From Desulfobulbaceae bacterium (GTDB lineage: Bacteria; Desulfobacterota; Desulfobulbia; Desulfobulbales; SURF-16), in NCBI GenBank assembly GCA_002868945.1, contig PKTX01000007.1, forward strand, positions 1 to 47,860: a stretch of DNA of 47,860 nt, read 5' to 3'. Each line of letters starts with the position of its first letter. Within the stretch, counting starts at the first letter, position 1. Positions 21,286-36,273 of this stretch are shown piece after piece. The notes below the pieces were generated by a model. The model did not search any database, had not been told where the DNA came from, and worked only from the letters and a program-made list of their open reading frames with translations. The translations under genes and the position numbers were made by a program.

Positions 21286-21331
21286 TTGCGTTTTTGCAAT
21301 ACTTCCACGGGGCAGGGTTGCGCAGTCGCAA
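21286..21331 (+). promoter_or_regulatory. Paired palindromic activator sites (UAS) upstream of the 21507 gene
   Basis: Site 1 TTGCGTTTTTGCAA (21286-21299) and site 2 TTGCGCAGTCGCAA (21318-21331) both fit TTGCR-N4-YGCAA. Their starts are 32 bp apart, about three helical turns. The second ends 79 bp before the GG of the sigma-54 promoter. The same arrangement is found at three other operons in this window. Confidence 0.75.
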
Positions 21332-21408: not shown

Positions 21409-21423
21409 TGGCACATAATATGT
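21409..21423 (+). promoter_or_regulatory. Sigma-54 promoter of the 21507 gene
   Basis: TGGCACATAATATGT has a perfect -24 TGGCAC block and, after ten bases, GT in place of the usual -12 GC. It lies 84 bp before the start codon. Confidence 0.65.
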
Positions 21424-21506
21424 AAAGCTCTTTAACATACCTTGAAGAAACGAACCTTTTTTATAGAAGAGGATTTAAGACCAATCTTTGCCACCGGAGA
21501 AGGATC

Positions 21507-21938
21507 ATGACTCATTACCTGATTTTCCTGGCCCTGATACCCATTGCCTCTTTTCAGCTGTGCAGAATGTTTGCTCCGGGCCGCCTCTGGCTCTGGACCG
21601 GGCTGACCGTGGGCGCTGTCATTGCCCCGGTGAGCCAGGGTCTTGTCGAGTACACCATGATCCCGCTTATCGGCGGTATGCTGGGTCTGATGGGGGCCAT
21701 CTTCAACATGATCCACGGGTCCGTGGGGTACTTTCTCCTGGCCGCCTGTGACATCTTTCAACCCGGTGCTGTGCTTGATGGTTCGCAGTTGACCATGATG
21801 AACCTGGTTAATGGGGCCATCTGGACGATTTATTACGGCCTGGTCGGCTATCGCATCGATGTCAAGGCAGCCAGGAAGACATCCGCAAAATATGTTGTGG
21901 TGGGCGCCGCCAAACTCAAGCATGGTGAAGAGTTCTAA
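21507..21938 (+). CDS. Integral membrane protein, paralogue of the 23318 protein
   Basis: A 143-residue protein with about four hydrophobic helices. It shares a layout with the product at 23318-23743: MxxYLIxLAxIPxxxF at the N-terminus, then VIAPVSQGLVEYTMIPLIG, NMIHGSVGYFLL and VNGAIWTIYYGLVGYRIDVK near the C-terminus. A histidine in the HGSxGYF motif is conserved in both and could be functional. The family is not one I can name. The ribosome binding site GGAGAAGG precedes the ATG. The paired palindromes and sigma-54 promoter upstream place it in the same regulon as the cytochromes, so a role in membrane electron transfer is a reasonable inference, not shown. Confidence 0.75.
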   Translation: MTHYLIFLALIPIASFQLCRMFAPGRLWLWTGLTVGAVIAPVSQGLVEYTMIPLIGGMLGLMGAIFNMIHGSVGYFLLAACDIFQPGAVLDGSQLTMMNLVNGAIWTIYYGLVGYRIDVKAARKTSAKYVVVGAAKLKHGEEF

Positions 21939-22168
21939 ACGGGCCGCAGCCGGGACACCTTCCGATGCAATAATGCGGCAGGCCGTCCTGACCTGGAAAG
22001 AAGGCGGCAACGAACGGCCCTGTCGTTGCTGCCGCGGTTTTCTTCTGATCAACCAGGTGGCCGGTCCGGCAGCCTCTCTTCCCCTGTCCCGCCACCCCGA
22101 AGGTCCGCAGCCTGCCCGGTGTGGAGGGTATATCTTGCACATCTGCAATGGTGATGGGGTCCTAAAAG

Positions 22169-22381
22169 GACCATCTTGAAGAGGTGCTCTTTCGGAGTCT
22201 CGCAGGCTCGCTTACCAGCCCGTTGAAAAACTACTGCGCTCGAAGGTCTCTCATCGTCGCTATCTGCTGATGCGTCGTCTTTCCCAGCCTCAGCTTCGCT
22301 CGCTACCGTTTTTCAACGGGCTGGTAGCTGGCCGATTTTTTCGGCGCTACGAAAATAAAAGATCTCATTATTCAAGATACC
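22169..22381. mobile_element. MITE-like element, family C copy 2, interrupted by a family A element
   Basis: Ends GACCATCTTGAA and ATTATTCAAGATACC match family C. The flanks share AAAAG (TAAAAG left, CAAAAG right), a probable imperfect target duplication. At 22216-22323 a complete family A element is nested inside. Next to the nested element the module GGAGTCTCGCAGGCTCGCTTACC (22195-22216) occurs, which is also present inverted in family C copy 3. Confidence 0.72.
22216..22323. mobile_element. MITE-like inverted-repeat element, family A copy 2 (nested)
   Basis: Begins CAGCCCGTTGAAAAAC and ends GTTTTTCAACGGGCTG, 108 bp in all. The flanks are TTAC and GTAG, so no clean direct duplication is seen here, unlike copies 1 and 3. 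It has no coding capacity. Confidence 0.75.
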
Positions 22382-22435
22382 CAAAAGTCAATTCCGTTGA
22401 CGGCTGCTTCCCGACAAACGAGTGAGTGCCAGATT

Positions 22436-23062
22436 ATGAGCAATGCGGCCTCTGTTGTTCCAGCCCTTGAGATCCTTGAGAGTATAGCCCTGGCCGTTTT
22501 TACGGTGGACCGGGCCTGGCGGATAACCTCCTTTAACAGGGGGGCCGAGGAGTTACTCGGCGTCAAGCGTCGAAACGTCTGCGGCGCCCCTTGTTCCGAT
22601 GTTTTTCACTCATCCCTGTGCCGGCATCACTGTCCCCTGCAAAATGCCTTCAGCAGCGGCACTCCCACCATGGTCAGAAATGCCGTGGTGGCCGACAACC
22701 AGGGCCATGGCGTGCCGGTTACCGTGTCAGCATCCCTGCTGCGCAATAACCAGGGCGCCGTTATCGGCGGCGTCGAGGTCTTTCAGGATCTGCGCCTGTT
22801 GGGGGAGCAGGCCGGTACCATGGAGCATGTGCTCCGGGATTTTGAGGCCCAAACCCTGCTTGCCGCCCTGGAGCGCAACAAAAATAACCGCACCGCTGCA
22901 GCCCGGGAGCTTGGAATTCACAAGAGCACCTTTTTCCGAAAGATCAAAAGCCTTGGCATTGACCTGCCGCAGGAGGACGGTCGTTTTCGTCTCTGCCCGG
23001 GCGGCGATAACCGCCGGGAGGGTATGGTGCCGGCCGCGCCGCAAAATGCATCGAACCGGTAA
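22436..23062 (+). CDS. PAS domain plus Fis-type HTH regulator without AAA+ domain
   Basis: From ATG 22436 the 208-residue product has one PAS domain (about residues 12-125) and a Fis-type helix-turn-helix (LLAALERNKNNRTAAARELGIH..., about 137-172). The PAS domain carries C53-x8-C62-x3-C66 with an extra C49, the same spacing as the four PAS repeats of the sigma-54 activator at 26480-28948. The HTH also resembles the activator's. The central AAA+ domain that contacts sigma-54 is absent, so it cannot itself open promoters. It may compete for the same palindromes or form mixed oligomers. An upstream TTG at 22397 is possible, but this ATG is more natural. It ends just before the palindrome pair that serves the next operon. 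Confidence 0.82.
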   Translation: MSNAASVVPALEILESIALAVFTVDRAWRITSFNRGAEELLGVKRRNVCGAPCSDVFHSSLCRHHCPLQNAFSSGTPTMVRNAVVADNQGHGVPVTVSASLLRNNQGAVIGGVEVFQDLRLLGEQAGTMEHVLRDFEAQTLLAALERNKNNRTAAARELGIHKSTFFRKIKSLGIDLPQEDGRFRLCPGGDNRREGMVPAAPQNASNR

Positions 23063-23068
23063 ACATGG

Positions 23069-23115
23069 TTGCACTTGTGCAATGGCAAGCATGGCCGTTG
23101 CTTGCATTTGTGCAA
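23069..23115 (+). promoter_or_regulatory. Paired palindromic activator sites (UAS) upstream of the 23318 operon
   Basis: Site 1 TTGCACTTGTGCAA (23069-23082) and site 2 TTGCATTTGTGCAA (23102-23115) have starts exactly 33 bp apart. Both keep the outer TTGCA and TGCAA perfectly. The second ends 80 bp before the -24 GG. Confidence 0.85.
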
Positions 23116-23193: not shown

Positions 23194-23209
23194 TGGCATA
23201 CTACCTGCT
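23194..23209 (+). promoter_or_regulatory. Sigma-54 promoter of the 23318 operon
   Basis: TGGCATACTACCTGCT has GG and GC separated by exactly ten bases, matching the -24/-12 consensus, and closely resembles the promoter at 24472-24487. Confidence 0.85.
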
Positions 23210-23317: not shown

Positions 23318-23743
23318 ATGAACCAATACCTTATCCTGTTGGCCATTATTCCACTCTCTGTTTTTCATCTGAGCAAAATGATGAATCCGCGCCGGCGCTG
23401 GCTCCTTTCCGGATTTGCCACCGGTCTCGTTATTGCGCCGGTGAGCATGGGGCTTATTGAATTCACCTATGTACCCATCATCGGCAAGGCCCTTGGTCTG
23501 GTCGGCGTGGTCGGGAATCTGATTCACGGCTCCATCGGCTACTTCTTCCTTGTCACCTTTGGCGGCCTGGAGCCGGGGGTGCTGCTCTCCACCTCGCAGC
23601 TGATCACCATCAACCTGGTGAATGCCGGCATCTGGGGGGCCTACTACGGCATGGTGGGTTATAACATTGATGCCAAACTTGCCACACAAGAGGCTCCGGC
23701 AGCAGAAGAGGAGCTCAAGGGCCTGAAACACAGGGTTGCCTGA
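23318..23743 (+). CDS. Integral membrane protein, paralogue of the 21507 protein
   Basis: A 141-residue protein with about four membrane helices and a hydrophilic, Glu/Lys-rich C-terminal tail (EAPAAEEELKG). Conserved with its paralogue: MNQYLILLAIIPLSVFHLSKMMNP at the start, VIAPVSMGLIEFTYVPIIGKALG, NLIHGSIGYFFL and INLVNAGIWGAYYGMVGYNID. It has a very strong ribosome binding site (AAGGAGG). A small membrane protein gene follows after 75 bp and is probably co-transcribed. The family is not recognised. The sigma-54 promoter and neighbouring cytochrome genes suggest a part in a membrane redox module. Confidence 0.78.
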   Translation: MNQYLILLAIIPLSVFHLSKMMNPRRRWLLSGFATGLVIAPVSMGLIEFTYVPIIGKALGLVGVVGNLIHGSIGYFFLVTFGGLEPGVLLSTSQLITINLVNAGIWGAYYGMVGYNIDAKLATQEAPAAEEELKGLKHRVA

Positions 23744-23818: not shown

Positions 23819-24040
23819 ATGTTACATCTTGCAGACGCCAAAAATAAACCGTCCATGAGCCGGTCTCATCACCACGCCGATACCGGTGATGACATGAGCC
23901 TTGCCGGTCTCACCATTGTAGTTGTCCTGGCCACCTTCATCGGTCTCTGGGGGATCAGCTGCCTGGCCTCCGGCCTTATCAAGGGTGGCGGCCTCATTGG
24001 CCTGGGCAGTGCCTGGCTTTCCGCTATCTTCGGTATGTAG
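23819..24040 (+). CDS. Small single-helix membrane protein with His/Asp-rich N-terminus
   Basis: 73 residues: a hydrophilic N-terminal part with HHHADTGDD, then one long hydrophobic segment (LAGLTIVVVLATFIGLWGISCLA) and a Gly-rich second hydrophobic patch (GGGLIGLGSAWLSAIFGM). A ribosome binding site (CGGAG) precedes the ATG. It sits 75 bp after the membrane protein gene in the sigma-54 operon. It could be an accessory subunit that stabilises a membrane complex; no family is recognised. Confidence 0.68.
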   Translation: MLHLADAKNKPSMSRSHHHADTGDDMSLAGLTIVVVLATFIGLWGISCLASGLIKGGGLIGLGSAWLSAIFGM

Positions 24041-24345
24041 GGGGGGCGGCACGAGCTCCCCACACCGAAGAGCTGCTAACCCATACTCTCTTCACCCCCT
24101 CGTACATGGCGGCAGGGCGCGAATATCTCCCTGCCGCCCTTTTTTTATGCGGCAGATGCCACTTTGTGCGGCCCGGCAGCTTCGGATCTTCCCGAGTTTT
24201 AGGGCGCTGCGTCTTACTGGTCGAACCGTAGCAGACAAACAGGGTGGACCTGCCTGGCCATCCCTCCATGCCCCTCAGTTTTTTTATGCCGTAACATATC
24301 GTCCGGCCGTGTGCTGTCAGGGCAGGACCGCGTCCGCGGCTACGG

Positions 24346-24392
24346 TTGCAAAAATGCAACTGTGCCATCCTGTTATGGTTGCGTTGTTGCAA
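24346..24392 (+). promoter_or_regulatory. Paired palindromic activator sites (UAS) upstream of the cytochrome operon
   Basis: Site 1 TTGCAAAAATGCAA (24346-24359) and site 2 TTGCGTTGTTGCAA (24379-24392) have starts exactly 33 bp apart. Each is extended by G on the left and C on the right. The second ends 81 bp before the -24 GG. The surrounding gap 24041-24588 holds no gene. Confidence 0.85.
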
Positions 24393-24428
24393 CCGTAGCC
24401 GCCGGTGGCAGTGAGACCAGTTTTGATA

Positions 24429-24471: not shown

Positions 24472-24487
24472 TGGCATAGTAGATGCT
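24472..24487 (+). promoter_or_regulatory. Sigma-54 promoter of the cytochrome operon
   Basis: TGGCATAGTAGATGCT keeps GG and GC ten bases apart. It lies about 100 bp before the cytochrome c start codon. Confidence 0.85.
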
Positions 24488-24588: not shown

Positions 24589-25692
24589 ATGAAGAAACTC
24601 AAAGAAGCAGCTCGATCCAGCGGTCTACTTTTCCTTTTTGTTTTTCTGGCCTGGCCCGCCCTGGTGACGGCCATGGATAATGGCGAATGTTTTGACTGTC
24701 ACAGTGACGAGACCCTGACCAGGGAGAATAATGAGCATGGCCATATCAACAATCTCCTTTTTGTCGATGAGGGCCGTTTTAATCGTTCCGTCCATCACAT
24801 CAGCGGACTCTTCTGTGTTGATTGCCACACCGATATAGAGGCGCTTGATTATGACAACGAGGTGCCGCATGCCAGGCAGCTGGCGCCGGTGCAGTGCGGC
24901 AACTGCCATAGTGAGTCTGAGGCCGCCTTTGCCGAAAGCGCCCATATGCAAATTCGCAGCAAGGGCATCAGCATGACCTGTTATGCCTGTCACGATTACC
25001 ACTATGTCAGCTATCTGGCCGGTGCCTCTGTTGCGGAGCGCGAGGATAATTTTTGCGCCAAGTGCCACAACCCGCACCGGAGCCATGACTGGTTGCCGAA
25101 AAAAGAGGAGCACTTTGCCTTTGTCGAATGCACGGTCTGTCATGCCCCGGAGGTACCGCGCCATATTCACCTCAAGTTCTTCGACCTGATGACCAACAAG
25201 TATTATCAGGGAGATGAAATCCTTGAGATTCTGGGAATCAGCTATGAGCAGTTCATGCCCCTGCTCGACACGGACAAGAACGGTATCCTCAGCCGTCAGG
25301 AGTTTGAGGCCCTGGAGCTCATGCTGCGCCAGAAAAACGTGCATGCCATTTTTCACGTGGAGTTGGTGGCGGAGATGGATCCGGCCGCCCACCAGGTCAC
25401 GGCGGAGGGCGCCGAACGCAACTGTGAAAAATGCCATACGCCGGAATCACCATATTTTAATGCCGTTACCATTGCCCTGCCCAATAAGGACGGCAGTGTC
25501 GATCATCACCGGGTGGAGCGGGCCGTTCTGGAGAGCTACAGTCTCAGGCATTTTTATATCTATGCCGGCACCAGGGTAAAGCTGCTGGACTTGATCGGTA
25601 TTGTGCTCTTGGGCGGCGCGGCCTGCGGGGTGCTCGGTCACTTGACCATCCGTGTCCTGACCATTCGCCTGCGTCGTAATAAAGACAAGTAA
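24589..25692 (+). CDS. Seven-haem c-type cytochrome with EF-hand and C-terminal membrane anchor
   Basis: The 367-residue protein has a signal peptide (LLFLFVFLAWPALVTAM) and seven CxxCH haem sites: CFDCH, CVDCH, CGNCH, CYACH, CAKCH, CTVCH and, after a gap, CEKCH. Between the sixth and seventh sites lies DTDKNGILSRQE (about residues 225-236), a good EF-hand calcium loop. Near the C-terminus a hydrophobic helix (LLDLIGIVLLGGAACGVLGHL) followed by Arg/Lys anchors it to the inner membrane, leaving the haems periplasmic. The next gene, 24 bp on, encodes a b-type cytochrome, so together they probably exchange electrons between the quinone pool and periplasmic haems. Direction and partner are unknown. 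Confidence 0.88.
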   Translation: MKKLKEAARSSGLLFLFVFLAWPALVTAMDNGECFDCHSDETLTRENNEHGHINNLLFVDEGRFNRSVHHISGLFCVDCHTDIEALDYDNEVPHARQLAPVQCGNCHSESEAAFAESAHMQIRSKGISMTCYACHDYHYVSYLAGASVAEREDNFCAKCHNPHRSHDWLPKKEEHFAFVECTVCHAPEVPRHIHLKFFDLMTNKYYQGDEILEILGISYEQFMPLLDTDKNGILSRQEFEALELMLRQKNVHAIFHVELVAEMDPAAHQVTAEGAERNCEKCHTPESPYFNAVTIALPNKDGSVDHHRVERAVLESYSLRHFYIYAGTRVKLLDLIGIVLLGGAACGVLGHLTIRVLTIRLRRNKDK

Positions 25693-25716: not shown

Positions 25717-26334
25717 ATGAGCGAAAAAATGATATACATTCACCCGGCTCCGGTGCGGGTCTGGCATTGGATCCATGCTGCGGGCATTGTCGCCCTGGTG
25801 ATCACCGGTTTCCAGATTCGCTACGCCGAAATGTTGGGTATAATGCCCCTCAGGGATGCCATAACCCTGCATAACTATGTCGGCTTTATGGTGATTATAG
25901 ATTACTTTATCTGGCTTGGTTATTACCTGGGCACCGGCAAGATAAAGATCTACTTCCCGGACCTGCGTACCTTTGTGCCCAATGCCATCAGGCAGGCCAA
26001 GTATTATGGCTTCGGTATCTTCAAGGGCGACCCCAACCCCCATGTCATGACACCGGACAATAAGTTCAACGCCCTGCAGCAAAAGGCGTATGTGGGGTTG
26101 ATGTTCATGCTGTTACCGGCCCAGATGATCTCCGGTGTCTTCCTGTGGCGTGTCAAGGGTTATGCCGATTATGTCCACCTGCTGGGCGGTATTAAGATCA
26201 TTGACACCATCCACGTCATCCTCTTTTTCTTCTTTGCCTCCTTCCTCATCGCCCACTGTTACCTGGCCACCCTGGGGCATACCCCCCTGGCCCATTTTAA
26301 GGCCATGTTCACCGGCTATGAGGAGCATCATTAA
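25717..26334 (+). CDS. Di-haem cytochrome b (hydrogenase/formate dehydrogenase gamma-like)
   Basis: A 205-residue membrane protein with four or five helices. Histidines suitable for haem b are seen in VWHWIHAAGIVALVITGF (first helix), LHNYVGFMV (second), IDTIHVILFFFFASFLIAHCY (last), the pattern of the cytochrome b561/Ni-Fe-hydrogenase b-subunit family. Such subunits link membrane quinones to periplasmic redox partners. It follows the multihaem cytochrome by 24 bp with ribosome binding site AGGGAGA, so the two form an operon. Ends HH. Confidence 0.88.
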   Translation: MSEKMIYIHPAPVRVWHWIHAAGIVALVITGFQIRYAEMLGIMPLRDAITLHNYVGFMVIIDYFIWLGYYLGTGKIKIYFPDLRTFVPNAIRQAKYYGFGIFKGDPNPHVMTPDNKFNALQQKAYVGLMFMLLPAQMISGVFLWRVKGYADYVHLLGGIKIIDTIHVILFFFFASFLIAHCYLATLGHTPLAHFKAMFTGYEEHH

Positions 26335-26479: not shown

Positions 26480-28948
26480 TCAGCTCTTCTTGGTCACCGG
26501 AAAGATGATCTGATACTTCTTCATCTTGCGCCACAGGGTGGTTTTGTCGATACCGAGATGGGCTGCCGTCTTGCCACGGTTGCCCTCAAACTTCTGCAGG
26601 GCGGCCAGAATGGTTGAGGCCTCGGCGTTGGAGAGCGGCGTGGCCTTTTCCGAGGCAGGGCCGGGCATGACTTGCTCCTGGAGGGGTTCGATGAGGCCCT
26701 CGGGCAGACACTCCACCTCGATGGTCCGCCCCTGGCAGAGGACAAAGCAATATTCAATGATGTTTTCCAGCTCTCTGATGTTGCCGGGGAAATCGTGGCG
26801 CATGAGAAGACTGACCACCTCGGGCGAGGCGGATTCGATATTGCGCTGTTTGAGGTTGTTGAACTTGTGGATGAAATGGTCAATCAGCAGGGGGATATCC
26901 TCCCGGCGCTGGGCCAGGGGGGGCAGGCTGATCTTGATGACGTTGAGTCGGAAAAAGAGGTCCTCGCGGAAACGGCCTGCCTCCACCTGCTCCTGAAGAT
27001 TTTTATTGGTGGCGGCAATTACCCTGACATCCGCCTTCAGGGTGGTGGTGCCGCCCAGGGGCTCATACTCCTTTTCCTGGAGGACGCGCAGCAGCTTGAG
27101 CTGCAGGGCCGGGGAGATATCACCGATCTCGTCGAGAAAGATAGTCCCCCCTTCGGCCAGGGCAAAGCGGCCGAGCTTGTGACCCTTGGCACCGGTAAAG
27201 GCCCCCTGTCGGTAGCCAAAGAGCTCCGATTCAAGGAGGGTATCGGGCAGAGCGGCACAGTTGAGGGCGATAAACTTGCCCGGCCGCTCGGCCAGGGTAT
27301 GGATGGCCTTGGCAAAGAGCTCCTTACCGGAGCCGCTCGGCCCCTCAATGAGCACCGTACTGTCGCTCTTGGCGATATTGGGCAGGATGGCAAAGATGTT
27401 TTTGATCTTATGATTTTTACTGATGATATCGTGGAAGGAGTATCTTTCGCTGATTTCCTTGCGCAACTCCTCCAGGGCCGAACAGTCGCGGAAGGTCTCG
27501 ACGCCGCCGATGACGTTGCCGTCCTCGTCACGCAGGGCCGAGGTGGTGATATTGATGGGAATGCGCTGGCCGTTATGGTTGGTGATGATCACCTTGAGGT
27601 TGGAAATCTCCTCGCCGTTGTTAATGGACTGTTTCAGGGCGCAGGCCTCTTGGCAGATGGAGGCCCGGAAGACGTTGTAACACTTCATGCCGATGGCCTT
27701 GGCCCGCGGCATACCGGTGATCTTTTCGGCCGCCAGGTTAAAGGAGGTGATGTTCCACTCCTTGTCAACGGTAAAGGCACCGTCGTTGATGGAGTCAAGG
27801 ATGCAGTCGCTCAAGGTCAGTTCCTTGCGCAGCCCTTCAAGGGCGGACATGTCGCGAAAGGTCTCGACGCCGCCGATTATCTGGCCCTCATCATTACGCA
27901 TGACACAGGTGTTGACCCGGATGGGCACCTTGTCGCCCTCGATATCGATGATGTTTACCTTCAGGTCATGGACATCAAGGCCCGTCTCCATCGACTTCCT
28001 CAGGGCACAGTTTGACCTACAGATATCCGCCTTGAAGATTTCGGAGCACTTCTTACCGATGGCCTCGCTGCGATGCACGCCGGTGATGTCTTCGGCGGAT
28101 TTGTTAAACGAGGTGATCCGCCAGTCATAGTCAACGGAAAAGGCACCGTCGGCAATGGAGTCAAGGATGGTGTCGCTCAGCGAGATCTCGCGCCGCATCT
28201 TTTCAAAGGTGGAGATGTCGCGAAAGGTCTCGACACCGCCGATGACCTCAAATTTTTCGTTACGCAGCACCGAGGTGGTGATGATGATGGGAATCTTGTC
28301 GCCCTCGATATCCTCAATGGTCACCTTGAGGTTGGTGACGTCGCGGCCTGTTTCGATGGATTGCTGCAGGGCGCAGGCAGACTTGCAGATGTTCGCCTTG
28401 AAAATTTCGTAGCACTTCTTGCCGAGGGCATCACTGCGGTGAATACCGGTGATCTCTTCGGCGGTTCGGTTAAAGGAGATAATGTTGCGATGCCGGTCCA
28501 CGGCAAAGGCGCCGTCGGCAATGGACTCGAGAATCGAGTCGCTGAGACTGTCGTGACACTGATCAAAACCCTTTTCCGTGGTTTCCCGCAGGGTGGAGAC
28601 GCCGCCGGCAAAGTCGCCCTTTTCGTTAAAGAGGGGCGTGGTGTAGACAATTACCGGGATCTCCTTGCCCTGGGTATTTTTCAGGGCAATGTTGTGGCTG
28701 ACAATCTTTTCCTTGAGCTTCCTGGCCTGTTGCAGGGCGCAGGATGTCTTGCAGATCGTGGTGCGGAAAATGTCGTAGCATTTCTTGCCCGCCACATCCC
28801 AGCGTTTAAAGCCGGTTATCCTTTCCGCCCCCCTGTTAAAGGCGGTTATGTTGAAGTCCTGGTCAACGGTAAAGGCTGGATCGGTGATGGAGTTAAGCGA
28901 GCTGGTGGTGAACCTTGTCTCCGGGTTATCGGCTTTTGTCAGTAACAT
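26480..28948 (-). CDS. Sigma-54 activator with four cysteine-bearing PAS domains (OrpR-like)
   Basis: Of 822 residues, about 1-495 hold four tandem PAS domains, 505-740 the AAA+ domain (Walker A GPSGSGKE, sigma-54 contact loop GAFTGA, Walker B TIFLDEIGD), and the end a Fis-type HTH. Each PAS has C-x8-C-x3-C: first cysteines at 57, 179, 301 and 423, an exact 122-residue period, which points to recent tandem duplication. In Desulfovibrio vulgaris the activator OrpR of the orange-protein operons is reported to sense redox through a PAS-bound iron-sulfur cluster, and these cysteines fit a cluster in each repeat. Four paired-palindrome sigma-54 promoters in this window are its likely targets, and a fifth pair lies 82 bp upstream of its own ATG. 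No clear ribosome binding site is visible. Confidence 0.88.
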   Translation of the reverse strand: MLLTKADNPETRFTTSSLNSITDPAFTVDQDFNITAFNRGAERITGFKRWDVAGKKCYDIFRTTICKTSCALQQARKLKEKIVSHNIALKNTQGKEIPVIVYTTPLFNEKGDFAGGVSTLRETTEKGFDQCHDSLSDSILESIADGAFAVDRHRNIISFNRTAEEITGIHRSDALGKKCYEIFKANICKSACALQQSIETGRDVTNLKVTIEDIEGDKIPIIITTSVLRNEKFEVIGGVETFRDISTFEKMRREISLSDTILDSIADGAFSVDYDWRITSFNKSAEDITGVHRSEAIGKKCSEIFKADICRSNCALRKSMETGLDVHDLKVNIIDIEGDKVPIRVNTCVMRNDEGQIIGGVETFRDMSALEGLRKELTLSDCILDSINDGAFTVDKEWNITSFNLAAEKITGMPRAKAIGMKCYNVFRASICQEACALKQSINNGEEISNLKVIITNHNGQRIPINITTSALRDEDGNVIGGVETFRDCSALEELRKEISERYSFHDIISKNHKIKNIFAILPNIAKSDSTVLIEGPSGSGKELFAKAIHTLAERPGKFIALNCAALPDTLLESELFGYRQGAFTGAKGHKLGRFALAEGGTIFLDEIGDISPALQLKLLRVLQEKEYEPLGGTTTLKADVRVIAATNKNLQEQVEAGRFREDLFFRLNVIKISLPPLAQRREDIPLLIDHFIHKFNNLKQRNIESASPEVVSLLMRHDFPGNIRELENIIEYCFVLCQGRTIEVECLPEGLIEPLQEQVMPGPASEKATPLSNAEASTILAALQKFEGNRGKTAAHLGIDKTTLWRKMKKYQIIFPVTKKS

Positions 28949-32916: not shown

Positions 32917-33429
32917 TCACTTATTTATGGACTGCGACGGCAAGGAGTTCTCATAAATGACAACGTCTCCCTCTGCCAGAAACGGACCATGCACCTCGCC
33001 GGGTGGTCTGGATGCGTAACAGCCCGTTGAAAAACGTAACGAGCGCAGCTGAGGCTAGGAAAAATGAGGCGAAAAAGCGCAGTTTACATAGGGTAAATGA
33101 GCATTTTGAGCCGAATTTTGACGACGCATCAGTAAGTGCAGTAGTTTTTCAACGGGCTGGTAAGAACCGGGCTCCAACCAGATATCAAATGCTTCGTCAT
33201 ACAGCCGTCCTGATACGACGAATATCTCTTCCGGATAGGGGTGGGACTTGCTGCCAAAGGCCCCGGTGTAATATCCGTCTCTGAACCAGGTCAACCTGGT
33301 GTAATCACCCGTTTCTTCATCGATAGCCAAGGTAATCTCCTTCAGGTTACCCTCTGAGCCGGCAATCTCCTGCCACTTCTCAAAACCCTTCTGTGTCATT
33401 GGGTTCCAATAGGTCGTTGTTGTTTTCAT
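32917..33429 (-). pseudogene. Cupin-domain protein gene (ChrR-like) broken by a mobile element
   Basis: The ATG at 33429 (AGGAAGG upstream) opens MKTTTTYWNPMTQKGFEKWQ and reads a cupin-like region (YPEEIFVVSGRLYDEAFDIWLEPGSY) up to 33160, where a family A element is inserted. Beyond the element the same protein resumes at 33015 as ASRPPGEVHGPFLAEGD and ends with a stop at 32919-32917. Removing the element and one GTAA copy restores the frame exactly as EPGSY-ASRPPGEVHGPF, a typical cupin motif with the conserved E...H pattern. As it stands the product would run on into element-encoded residues (QPVEKLLHLL...). The insertion must be fairly recent because both halves remain intact. Confidence 0.85.
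33020..33159. mobile_element. MITE-like inverted-repeat element, family A copy 3, in cupin gene
   Basis: Begins CAGCCCGTTGAAAAAC and ends TTTTTCAACGGGCTG; 140 bp. It is flanked by GTAA on both sides (33016-33019 and 33160-33163), the same 4-bp duplication as copy 1. Because it interrupts a recognisable gene, it gives the exact element boundaries. Confidence 0.88.
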
Positions 33430-33669: not shown

Positions 33670-33716
33670 TTGCACTCTTGCAATGTCCACTCCGGCAATG
33701 AATTGCAGCGGCGCAA
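33670..33716 (+). promoter_or_regulatory. Paired palindromic activator sites (UAS) upstream of the ORP operon
   Basis: Site 1 TTGCACTCTTGCAA (33670-33683) and site 2 TTGCAGCGGCGCAA (33703-33716) have starts exactly 33 bp apart. The second ends 79 bp before the -24 GG of the promoter at 33794. Confidence 0.85.
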
Positions 33717-33793: not shown

Positions 33794-33809
33794 TGGCGCA
33801 TAATATGCA
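33794..33809 (+). promoter_or_regulatory. Sigma-54 promoter of the ORP operon
   Basis: TGGCGCATAATATGCA has GG and GC ten bases apart. The leader to the first gene is about 220 bp long, with no gene in it; its content (an extra ATTACGCATATTATTGC palindrome-like stretch right after the promoter) may be regulatory. Confidence 0.75.
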
Positions 33810-34041: not shown

Positions 34042-34494
34042 ATGAAAGTTGCTATTTCCAGTACCGGCCCAAACCTGACCGCAGATGTTGACCCACGCTT
34101 CGGCAGGGCCGCGTTTTTGCTCATCTACGATACCGACAAACACCAGCTGCTGGAGGCCATCGACAATAGCGCCGGCCAGGATGCGGCCCAGGGCGCCGGC
34201 ATTACAGTGGCCGGCATGCTGGCCGACAAAGGAGTGGCGGCCATTGTCACCGGCCGGGTCGGGCCCAAGGCCATGGCTGTGATCGACAAGGCGGCAATCA
34301 AGATCTTTGAGGGGGCCACGGGCACGGTGCAGGAGGCCCTGGCCCGGCTGCCGGACCAGTCGGTGAGCCGGGCCGAGACCGGCAGTGCCGATCGTGCCGG
34401 CAGTGGCTGTCGATTGATGGGCGGCAGCGGCATGGGCATGGGCCGGGGTCGGGGTCGGGGCGGCAGAGGAGGCCGTTGCCGCATAGAAGGCTGA
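34042..34494 (+). CDS. NifX/NifB-C-like small protein, orange protein (ORP) homologue
   Basis: 150 residues. The first 105 form the dinitrogenase iron-molybdenum cofactor fold: MKVAISSTGPNLTADVDPRFGRAAFLLIYD, then AIDNSAGQDAAQGAGITVA and VTGRVGPKAMAVID. In Desulfovibrio the homologous ORP holds a Mo-Cu sulfide cluster and is encoded with MinD-type ATPases, exactly the arrangement here. The C-terminal 45 residues are a low-complexity tail (GSGMGMGRGRGRGGRGG) with two cysteines. A strong ribosome binding site (AGGAGAG) precedes the ATG. It is first in a three-gene operon behind a sigma-54 promoter. Confidence 0.85.
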   Translation: MKVAISSTGPNLTADVDPRFGRAAFLLIYDTDKHQLLEAIDNSAGQDAAQGAGITVAGMLADKGVAAIVTGRVGPKAMAVIDKAAIKIFEGATGTVQEALARLPDQSVSRAETGSADRAGSGCRLMGGSGMGMGRGRGRGGRGGRCRIEG

Positions 34495-34510
34495 GGCCGG
34501 AGGCAGAACG

Positions 34511-35338
34511 ATGCAGATAGCAGTGGCAAGCGGTAAGGGCGGTACGGGCAAGACCACGGTGGCCACCAGTCTGGCCCTCTGCGGCGGCGCCGATGTGCAG
34601 TTTCTTGACTGTGATGTCGAGGAACCCAATGGCCATATATTCCTCAATCCGGGCTTTATCGGCCGCACCACCCATTGTGTCACCATTCCCCGGATCGACA
34701 GCGATCACTGCTCCTATTGCGGGAAATGCCGTAACATCTGTCGTTTTAACGCCATTACCATGTTCGGCCAGACCATCATGGCCTTTGGCGAGCTTTGCCA
34801 CTCCTGCCTCGGCTGTTTTCTGGTCTGCGAGAATGAGGCCATTGTTCGCGACAGCCGCGAGATAGGCGTCCTGGAGTGGGGTCGAGCCGGAGAGCTCGAC
34901 TTTGTCCATGGCCGCCTCCGGGTGGGGGAGGCCATGGCCGTCCCCCTGATCCGGCAGGTGAAAAAAAGGGCGCGCCCGGACGCCACGGTGATCATTGATG
35001 CGCCGCCCGGCACCTCCTGCCCCTTTGTGGAGAGCGTCGCCGGCGTCGATTATGTGCTGCTGGTCTCCGAGCCGACGCCCTTTGGCCTCCATGATCTGCA
35101 GTTGACCGTGCAGGCCCTGCGCGGTTTGGACAAGCCGTGCGGGGTGGTACTGAATCGGGCCGATCTTGGTGATGAGCGGCTGGAAGAATGGTGCCATCAA
35201 CAAAATATCCCGCTGCTGTTGAAGATTCCCTTTAATCGCGCCATTGCCGAGGGCTATGCCCACGGCCAGACCATGGTGGAGAGCCGGCCGGACCTGCGCC
35301 ACCCCTTGGAAAATCTGTTGCAGGAGATCAGGCAATGA
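34511..35338 (+). CDS. MinD/Mrp-type ATPase with inserted ferredoxin domain (first)
   Basis: 275 residues. The deviant Walker A GKGGTGKTT at the N-terminus and DAPPGTSCP later are typical of the MinD/ParA/Mrp superfamily. A two-cluster ferredoxin is inserted at about residues 64-110: C67-x2-C70-x2-C73-x3-C77 and C96-x2-C99-x2-C102-x3-C106. In Desulfovibrio such pairs belong to the ORP complex. ATPase-driven handling of Fe-S or Mo-Cu clusters, or membrane positioning, is plausible. It follows the ORP-like gene by 16 bp and overlaps the next ATPase gene by four bases. Confidence 0.92.
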   Translation: MQIAVASGKGGTGKTTVATSLALCGGADVQFLDCDVEEPNGHIFLNPGFIGRTTHCVTIPRIDSDHCSYCGKCRNICRFNAITMFGQTIMAFGELCHSCLGCFLVCENEAIVRDSREIGVLEWGRAGELDFVHGRLRVGEAMAVPLIRQVKKRARPDATVIIDAPPGTSCPFVESVAGVDYVLLVSEPTPFGLHDLQLTVQALRGLDKPCGVVLNRADLGDERLEEWCHQQNIPLLLKIPFNRAIAEGYAHGQTMVESRPDLRHPLENLLQEIRQ

Positions 35339-36273
35339 AAGAGATCGTCGTGTTGAGCGGCAAAGGCGGCACAGGCAAGACGAGCCTGTTGGGTTCGTTG
35401 GCCTGTCTTGCCGAAAACAAGGTACTGGCCGACTGTGATGTGGATGCCGCTGATCTGCACCTTCTCCTGGATCCGGTGCCGCGCAGTGAAAATGCCTTCC
35501 TCTCCGGGGTCAAGGCGCGCGTGGTAGCAAAGGAGTGCAGCGGCTGCGGTACCTGCCACGAGCTCTGCCGGTTCGAAGCCATTGACATGGCCGACAGCGC
35601 CACCATCAATCCCCTGGCCTGTGAGGGATGCGGTGTCTGCGCCTGTTTCTGTCCGGAACAGGCCATTCGTCTGGACAAGAACCATTGCGGCACCTGGTAT
35701 ATCTCCGACACCGAGCACGGCCCCCTGGTCCATGCCCAGCTCTTTGCCGGCGAGGAAAATTCCGGTAAGCTCGTCTCCTTTGTCAAAAGGCAGGCGCGGC
35801 AGCTGGCCGAGGAGAGCGGCGCCGAGCTTATGCTGGTGGACGGTGCCCCGGGCATCGCCTGTCCGGTGATCGCCTCCCTGGCCGGGGCTGATCTGGTGCT
35901 GGCCGTCACCGAACCAACCCTGTCGGGCTGGCATGATCTGGAACGGGTTCTTGGCCTTACCGAGCATTTCCGCATCCAGACCTTTGTCTGCCTTAATAAG
36001 TGGGACCTCAATCCGCAGATGGCAGACGCCCTTACCAGCAGTTGTCGGGCCAGGGGGGTGGAGGTGTTGGGCCGCATTCCCTTTGATGCGGGCGTGGTCC
36101 AGGCCCAGCTCCAGGGGCGACCGGTGGTGTCCACCGACTGCCCGGCCGCCACAGCCATGGCAGACATCTGGGCCGCATTGCAGAGCAGACTGGTCACGGC
36201 CGGTACCAGCCCGGCAACCGGCAAGATCGGCCTGTCCCTGACAGCCCCGGGTAGCGAGATGCGGCCCGGCTGA
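35335..36273 (+). CDS. MinD/Mrp-type ATPase with inserted ferredoxin domain (second)
   Basis: 312 residues, a paralogue of the preceding product. Walker A is SGKGGTGKTS, and VDGAPGIACPV is the second nucleotide motif. The inserted two-cluster ferredoxin reads ECSGCGTCHELCRF and ACEGCGVCACFCPE. The C-terminal 35 residues are poorly conserved. Four-base overlap (ATGA) with the upstream gene means translational coupling, and the two ATPases probably act as a heterodimer. No terminator is obvious after it. Confidence 0.92.
   Translation: MKEIVVLSGKGGTGKTSLLGSLACLAENKVLADCDVDAADLHLLLDPVPRSENAFLSGVKARVVAKECSGCGTCHELCRFEAIDMADSATINPLACEGCGVCACFCPEQAIRLDKNHCGTWYISDTEHGPLVHAQLFAGEENSGKLVSFVKRQARQLAEESGAELMLVDGAPGIACPVIASLAGADLVLAVTEPTLSGWHDLERVLGLTEHFRIQTFVCLNKWDLNPQMADALTSSCRARGVEVLGRIPFDAGVVQAQLQGRPVVSTDCPAATAMADIWAALQSRLVTAGTSPATGKIGLSLTAPGSEMRPG

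Follow-up and report, generated by a model that had tools for sequence, protein, structure and literature searches.

What a protein that joins a cysteine-bearing PAS domain directly to a Fis-type helix-turn-helix (HTH) domain, with no ATPase module between them, might do within the regulon of a sigma-54 activator is the question raised by the locus described here. The window under study is a stretch of 47,860 nucleotides from the 3.7-Mb genome of a Desulfobulbaceae bacterium (G000; other genomes are likewise labeled with G-numbers). The preliminary description of this DNA had proposed that the PAS-Fis protein may be a built-in antagonist of the local activator, which could occupy its paired palindromes or co-assemble with it, with repression and activation answering the same redox signal at different thresholds. 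The PAS-Fis gene (22436-23062, forward strand) is flanked by genes for two paralogous membrane proteins of about 140 residues, MP1 (21507..21938, +, 143 aa) and MP2 (23318..23743, +, 141 aa). These are followed on the same strand by genes for a 73-aa protein conserved in the locus (23819..24040), a multihaem cytochrome c (cytc, 24589..25692) and a PhsC-like cytochrome b of the Ni_hydr_CYTB type (cytb, 25717..26334), and then, on the reverse strand, by the activator gene (26480..28948). Further along the same stretch lie genes for a NifX/ORP-like protein and two ferredoxin-containing MinD-type ATPases (34042..36273, +). The MP1/MP2 family, which has no match in Pfam or NCBIfam, is represented in 31 of 253 genomes from the order, as a rule in the vicinity of genes for a multihaem cytochrome c and for a cytochrome b of the PhsC type. 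A repetitive inverted-repeat element (CCAGCCCGTTGAAAAAC..., 22194..22382) separates MP1 from PAS-Fis; it has 73 matching pieces in the genome, with a second copy in the window at 33020-33163.

The PAS-Fis reading frame begins with an ATG and encodes 208 residues; an in-frame TTG at 22397 is a possible alternative start that would add 13 residues. Pfam profiles detect a PAS domain (PAS_9, E 1.7e-9) and a Fis-type HTH (HTH_8, E 2.3e-11) and yield no match to Sigma54_activat or AAA, in agreement with the earlier statement that the sigma-54 ATPase domain is missing. With an HTH_8 score of 43.7 bits against a gathering score of 22 the protein counts as a Fis-type DNA-binding protein, and it is devoid of the AAA+ domain with a GAFTGA loop that marks sigma-54 enhancer-binding proteins. 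The PAS domain spans residues 13-120 (22472..22795) and contains, as had been described, a C-x8-C-x3-C motif formed by C53, C62 and C66 (codons at 22592, 22619 and 22631), which is unchanged in five orthologs. The HTH occupies residues 129-179 (22820..22972), with the recognition helix IHKSTFFRKIK encoded at 22916-22948. An AlphaFold model of moderate confidence (mean pLDDT 70.6) shows the three helices of the HTH (129-147, 152-159 and 163-172) C-terminal to a PAS fold. A PDB sequence search recovered only generic PAS relatives, and a fold search returned generic PAS/LOV matches with no hint of a cofactor. The local activator comprises four PAS domains, a Sigma54_activat AAA+ domain with GAFTGA, and an HTH_8 domain with the recognition helix IDKTTLWRKMK (hereafter W-class). 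The two HTHs had been called similar: both are of the Fis type, but they share only about 40% identity, and the helices (IHKSTFFRK versus IDKTTLWRK) differ at positions that covary with site preference.

The 3.7-Mb genome contains exactly four palindrome pairs of the form TTGCR-N4-YGCAA with a spacing of 32-33 bp, all of them at this locus; the reversed control pattern has no match in the same genome, and shuffled windows contain no such pair. One pair precedes each of four operons, and each operon has a sigma-54-type promoter on the forward strand: MP1 (pair 21286..21331; weaker promoter TGGCACATAATATGTA, 21409..21424), whose operon holds PAS-Fis; MP2 (23069..23115; TGGCATACTACCTGCT, 23194..23209); cytc (24345..24393, GTTGCA-N4-TGCAAC and GTTGCG-N4-TGCAAC, 33 bp apart; TGGCATAGTAGATGCT, 24472..24487); and the NifX-like/MinD operon (33670..33716; TGGCGCATAATATGCA, 33794..33809). 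The PAS-Fis gene thus does lie between two regulon operons, as previously noted. From the center of the second palindrome to the -24 element the distance is 85-87 bp at MP1, MP2 and cytc, with a matching spacing, measured by hand, at nifX. A distance of 81-89 bp recurs in nearly every operon checked in G001, G002, G004, G009, G010 and G012, including the operons that transcribe PAS-Fis. Given that a pair and promoter lie immediately 5' of PAS-Fis or its AAA+-bearing version in G002, G009, G004 and G010, and that the gene is placed after MP1 in G000, G001 and G012, PAS-Fis is probably itself a member of the activator's predicted regulon. A lone palindrome (TTGCACATCTGCAA, 22135..22148) precedes PAS-Fis in G000 and G001; it is not G-flanked and was not found in G002, G009 or G004. 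An overlapping 20-bp inverted site, TGTGCAA-N6-TTGCACA, was considered and rejected as it had no match. Some pairs include a third palindrome, either overlapping the second or within the spacer (L041:7114-7159, L042:9291-9337, L039:2816-2861), and G012 has a fifth TTGCA pair outside the locus (L050:5738-5784, contig C309), flanked by one gene for a helicase and another for a small secreted-type protein.

AAA+-less forms are present in G000, G001, G002, G009 and G012, and their occurrence in five genomes from several genera rules out an assembly error or frameshift as the cause of the missing domain. Every checked genome with such a form also encodes the second, W-class activator. Scanning 258 genomes from the order yielded no further case, and none was recognized in a pattern search across 84,980 species read together with an ORF survey, where distant cases may escape because the scan relies on short conserved words; none of the plasmid-borne relatives has the PAS-Fis architecture. 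The ortholog occupying the same place in G004 retains a degenerate AAA+ domain lacking both GAFTGA and the arginine-finger segment, and G010 has two copies without GAFTGA, one of them also with a damaged Walker B. The G010 region (L053:7419-12156) is a duplicated module, in which each GAFTGA-less paralog has a palindrome pair and a sigma-54 promoter on its 5' side and a ~140-aa membrane-protein gene of its own on the 3' side. At the same membrane-protein/cytochrome locus, G005, G216 and G239 encode an activator of the same helix type whose GAFTGA is intact, and they have no TTGCA pair; the G005 genome contains only a single strong C3-PAS match. Throughout this decay series, and across genera, the PAS cysteines and recognition helix are invariant and synteny is conserved. 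Two further members of the family were observed in G000. One (L047:6668-8539, contig C11), with matches of similar length in G001, G002 and G003, combines two C3-PAS domains with an AAA+ domain without GAFTGA and lacks any HTH, and may be a second form that is non-activating and does not bind DNA. The other (L044:8859-11006, contig C39) is a C3-PAS activator gene in which an in-frame TAG separates the PAS part from the AAA+ part.

In a tree built on the PAS and HTH columns (supports are SH-aLRT values), the PAS-Fis and GAFTGA-less proteins group with the intact activators of G005, G239 and G216 (90%). This nesting among intact activators, together with C-x8-C-x3-C, places PAS-Fis in the C3-PAS activator lineage. 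A single clade of all eight decayed proteins is favored (77%), within which the G009 protein pairs with that of G004 (87%); with this pairing the whole AAA+ domain was apparently lost twice. A 99% branch separates the PAS-Fis side from the W-class activators, and as the two proteins fall on opposite sides of it, derivation of PAS-Fis by truncation of the local four-PAS activator is rejected. PAS-Fis comes instead from a distinct sigma-54 activator lineage, at home in the same membrane-protein/cytochrome locus. The pN/pS ratio among the PAS-Fis genes of G000, G001 and G002 is 0.34-0.44. The notion of a built-in antagonist is thus supported insofar as PAS-Fis is a DNA-binding, non-activating relative of regulon activators that is under selection in a lineage without GAFTGA or AAA+, but it does not descend from the activator next to it.

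Which sites such a protein might recognize can be approached through the intact members of the family. When pairs were collected with the core T-n-GCA-N4-TGC-n-A, leaving positions -3 and -1 free, 41 were found in the vicinity of 88 family members, where 0.15 would be expected. Counted over independent loci, intact F/Y-class activators are associated with GT(C/A/T)GCA (G at -3 in 38 of 44 half-sites, T at -1 in 8 of 44), and W-class activators with D or E in the helix with ATTGCA (9 of 60 and 59 of 60, respectively). Hence the activator-type helix I[DE]KTTLWRK corresponds to ATTGCA and the PAS-Fis type IHKSTFFRK to GTnGCA, the core GCA-N4-TGC being common to both classes. In G007 and G008 the hybrid helix IHKTTLWRK is accompanied by sites that, read by eye, have G at -3 in 7 of 8 and T at -1 in 8 of 8 half-sites, a pattern suggesting that position -3 is read by the first residue of the helix and position -1 by the aromatic one. 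With H and F in its own helix, PAS-Fis should prefer GTnGCA. C3-PAS activators of several phyla have a palindrome pair spaced by 31-34 bp beside their own gene with letters matching the recognition helix (e.g. L107:2207, L127:1382, L085:446, L115:9327 and L151:9305).

The cytc pair is the sole hybrid site, fitting the preferences of both PAS-Fis and the activator. A PAS-Fis-type pair occurs once in G000, at the cytc enhancer, as against four activator-type pairs, all at the locus; likewise, the F-class pair found once per genome in G000, G001, G002 and G009 is the cytc enhancer. With the F-class matrix cytc pairs score 21-35 and other pairs 14-28, cytc being the best in every genome scored. 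Where the decayed lineage is present (seven genomes), G occupies -3 in 25 of 28 cytc half-sites versus 12 of 76 in other pairs (Fisher 5e-12) and versus 8 of 28 cytc half-sites in genomes without this lineage (Fisher 7e-6), counts in which half-sites are not independent and of which the second is confounded by phylogeny, as the two genome sets differ in family. Counting whole pairs gives 6 of 7 at cytc versus 0 of 19 for other pairs (3e-5) and versus 0 of 7 cytc pairs without the decayed lineage (p 0.005). In genomes without PAS-Fis the 8 of 28 at cytc stand against 0 of 28 at the MP2 pairs, and with this mild G richness part of the bias may be ancestral and predate the loss. G010, with its two dead paralogs, has only 2 of 4 G flanks at cytc. 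The control genomes without PAS-Fis, G003 from the same genus and G011 from the same family, have no cytochrome gene in either assembly.

The domain loss series, nesting within an intact lineage, synteny, enhancer/promoter architecture, helix-site covariation and the unique hybrid pair are the basis in sequence for what follows; from them we infer binding by PAS-Fis, the direction of its effect and its redox response. On balance, and by a slight preponderance, these features point to PAS-Fis being a retired sigma-54 activator that now competes with a newer activator at the cytc-cytb promoter. The fuller scenario, to which we give somewhat less than even weight, is that an activator displaced by a newer one lost GAFTGA and, in a later step, AAA+, and so became a competitor that keeps its sensor and acts at one promoter, set by one flanking half-site base, with the other three promoters escaping. 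The ancestor, with an HKST[FL]FRK helix, would have been an enhancer-binding protein of PAS(C3)-AAA+-Fis architecture and would have controlled the membrane-protein/cytochrome genes of the locus. In one Desulfobulbaceae-type branch a second activator, with a W-class helix and ATTGCA palindromes, may have taken over, after which the old regulator would have lost first the sigma-54-contacting GAFTGA loop and later, in what appear to be two separate events, the entire AAA+ domain, while retaining its Cys-PAS sensor and DNA-binding domain. PAS-Fis, as a dimer or pair of dimers, would sit on the cytc-cytb enhancer, where the G-flanked GTTGCA-N4-TGCAAC occurs twice. Lacking AAA+, it could not activate a sigma-54 promoter from its place some 85 bp upstream; it would not drive open-complex formation, and the simplest consequence would be exclusion of the activator and lowered expression of the cytochrome operon alone. 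The exclusion predicts that cytc-cytb is selectively damped while the regulon is induced. With the PAS-Fis gene itself in the predicted regulon of the activator, a delayed negative feedback loop would be closed. Through the PAS cysteines the competition could respond to redox or iron-sulfur status, and since both proteins have them, it is likely that the two share a redox or Fe-S signal.

The earlier proposal that PAS-Fis could occupy the paired palindromes is narrowed by the helix-site covariation and the single hybrid pair to promoter-selective competition at cytc-cytb: its helix type predicts good binding only at the pair at 24345-24393. That it nonetheless binds every pair or co-assembles with the activator, thereby antagonizing the whole regulon, appears unlikely; the core GCA-N4-TGC common to both site classes and its place in the same locus and regulon speak for this, but its helix is of the G-flank class and the remaining pairs score lower on the corresponding matrix. 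Slightly less improbable is a role as co-regulator, in which PAS-Fis on the cytc enhancer aids the activator through mixed palindrome occupation and PAS-PAS contact, or acts on another form of RNA polymerase, so that its loss would lower expression. The constant company of a second activator would fit such cooperation, as would the precedent of GAFTGA-less NtrC-family proteins, such as Rhodobacter capsulatus NtrC and HupR, that activate sigma-70 promoters; however, both AAA+ and GAFTGA are gone from PAS-Fis, and the position of the cytc pair, about 85 bp 5' of a sigma-54 promoter, suits enhancer binding and looping.

The progressive decay of the lineage, the repetitive element inserted upstream of PAS-Fis in G000 and the mild cytc G bias where PAS-Fis is absent might also be read as signs of a relic without a regulatory role, the G-flanked cytc sites being kept by inertia. 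The invariance of the cysteines and recognition helix across genera, the pN/pS ratio and the conserved synteny argue against this, and we regard it as quite improbable. Even less credible is that PAS-Fis mainly controls itself or acts at non-pair sites such as the lone palindrome at 22135, which precedes the gene in G000 and G001 but lacks G flanks and has no counterpart in G002, G009 or G004.

Competition at the cytc-cytb promoter, if correct, would offer a living series of intermediates in which an activator was displaced and then reused as an antagonist. It makes a sharp prediction, namely that one promoter out of four is affected, with one base pair per half-site deciding. The two-position recognition rule could further make the regulons of a large Cys-PAS activator family readable from sequence.

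Among known systems, a parallel to the entire locus is offered by the orp operons of Desulfovibrio vulgaris and their sigma-54 activator OrpR/DVU2106 (PMC3897727, PMC4641369), with a one-component PAS-type activator, palindromic enhancers and a small regulon including NifX/MinD-type genes; OrpR is in addition a repressor of its own promoter, and control of the orp operons has been reconstituted with reporters in E. coli together with sigma-54 and IHF (PMC3897727). Like the local activator of this window and unlike PAS-Fis, OrpR has an intact AAA+ domain. GAFTGA-less NtrC-family proteins, namely TyrR, R. capsulatus NtrC and HupR, keep the AAA+ domain and act on sigma-70 promoters; they too are activator relatives unable to engage sigma-54, whereas PAS-Fis has no AAA+ and its partner system is sigma-54. 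OrpR senses redox via a [4Fe-4S] cluster in its PAS domain; of the features of such a sensor PAS-Fis displays three conserved cysteines only. MphX, a repressor acting on the XylR/DmpR-type activator MphR (PMC3063778), is similarly a small locus-encoded protein that damps the regulon of a sigma-54 activator, but it is not described as a PAS-Fis protein and works by another mechanism. The best working analogue is PpsR/CrtJ of Rhodobacter, a redox-linked repressor that binds paired palindromes (PMC3949515, PMC9144470) and likewise joins PAS directly to a C-terminal HTH without AAA+. It differs in its three PAS domains, its TGT-N12-ACA sites overlapping the -35/-10 region and its other regulatory cysteines, and PAS-Fis, at 19.2 bits against a cutoff of 275.4 on TIGR02040, is not a member of its family.
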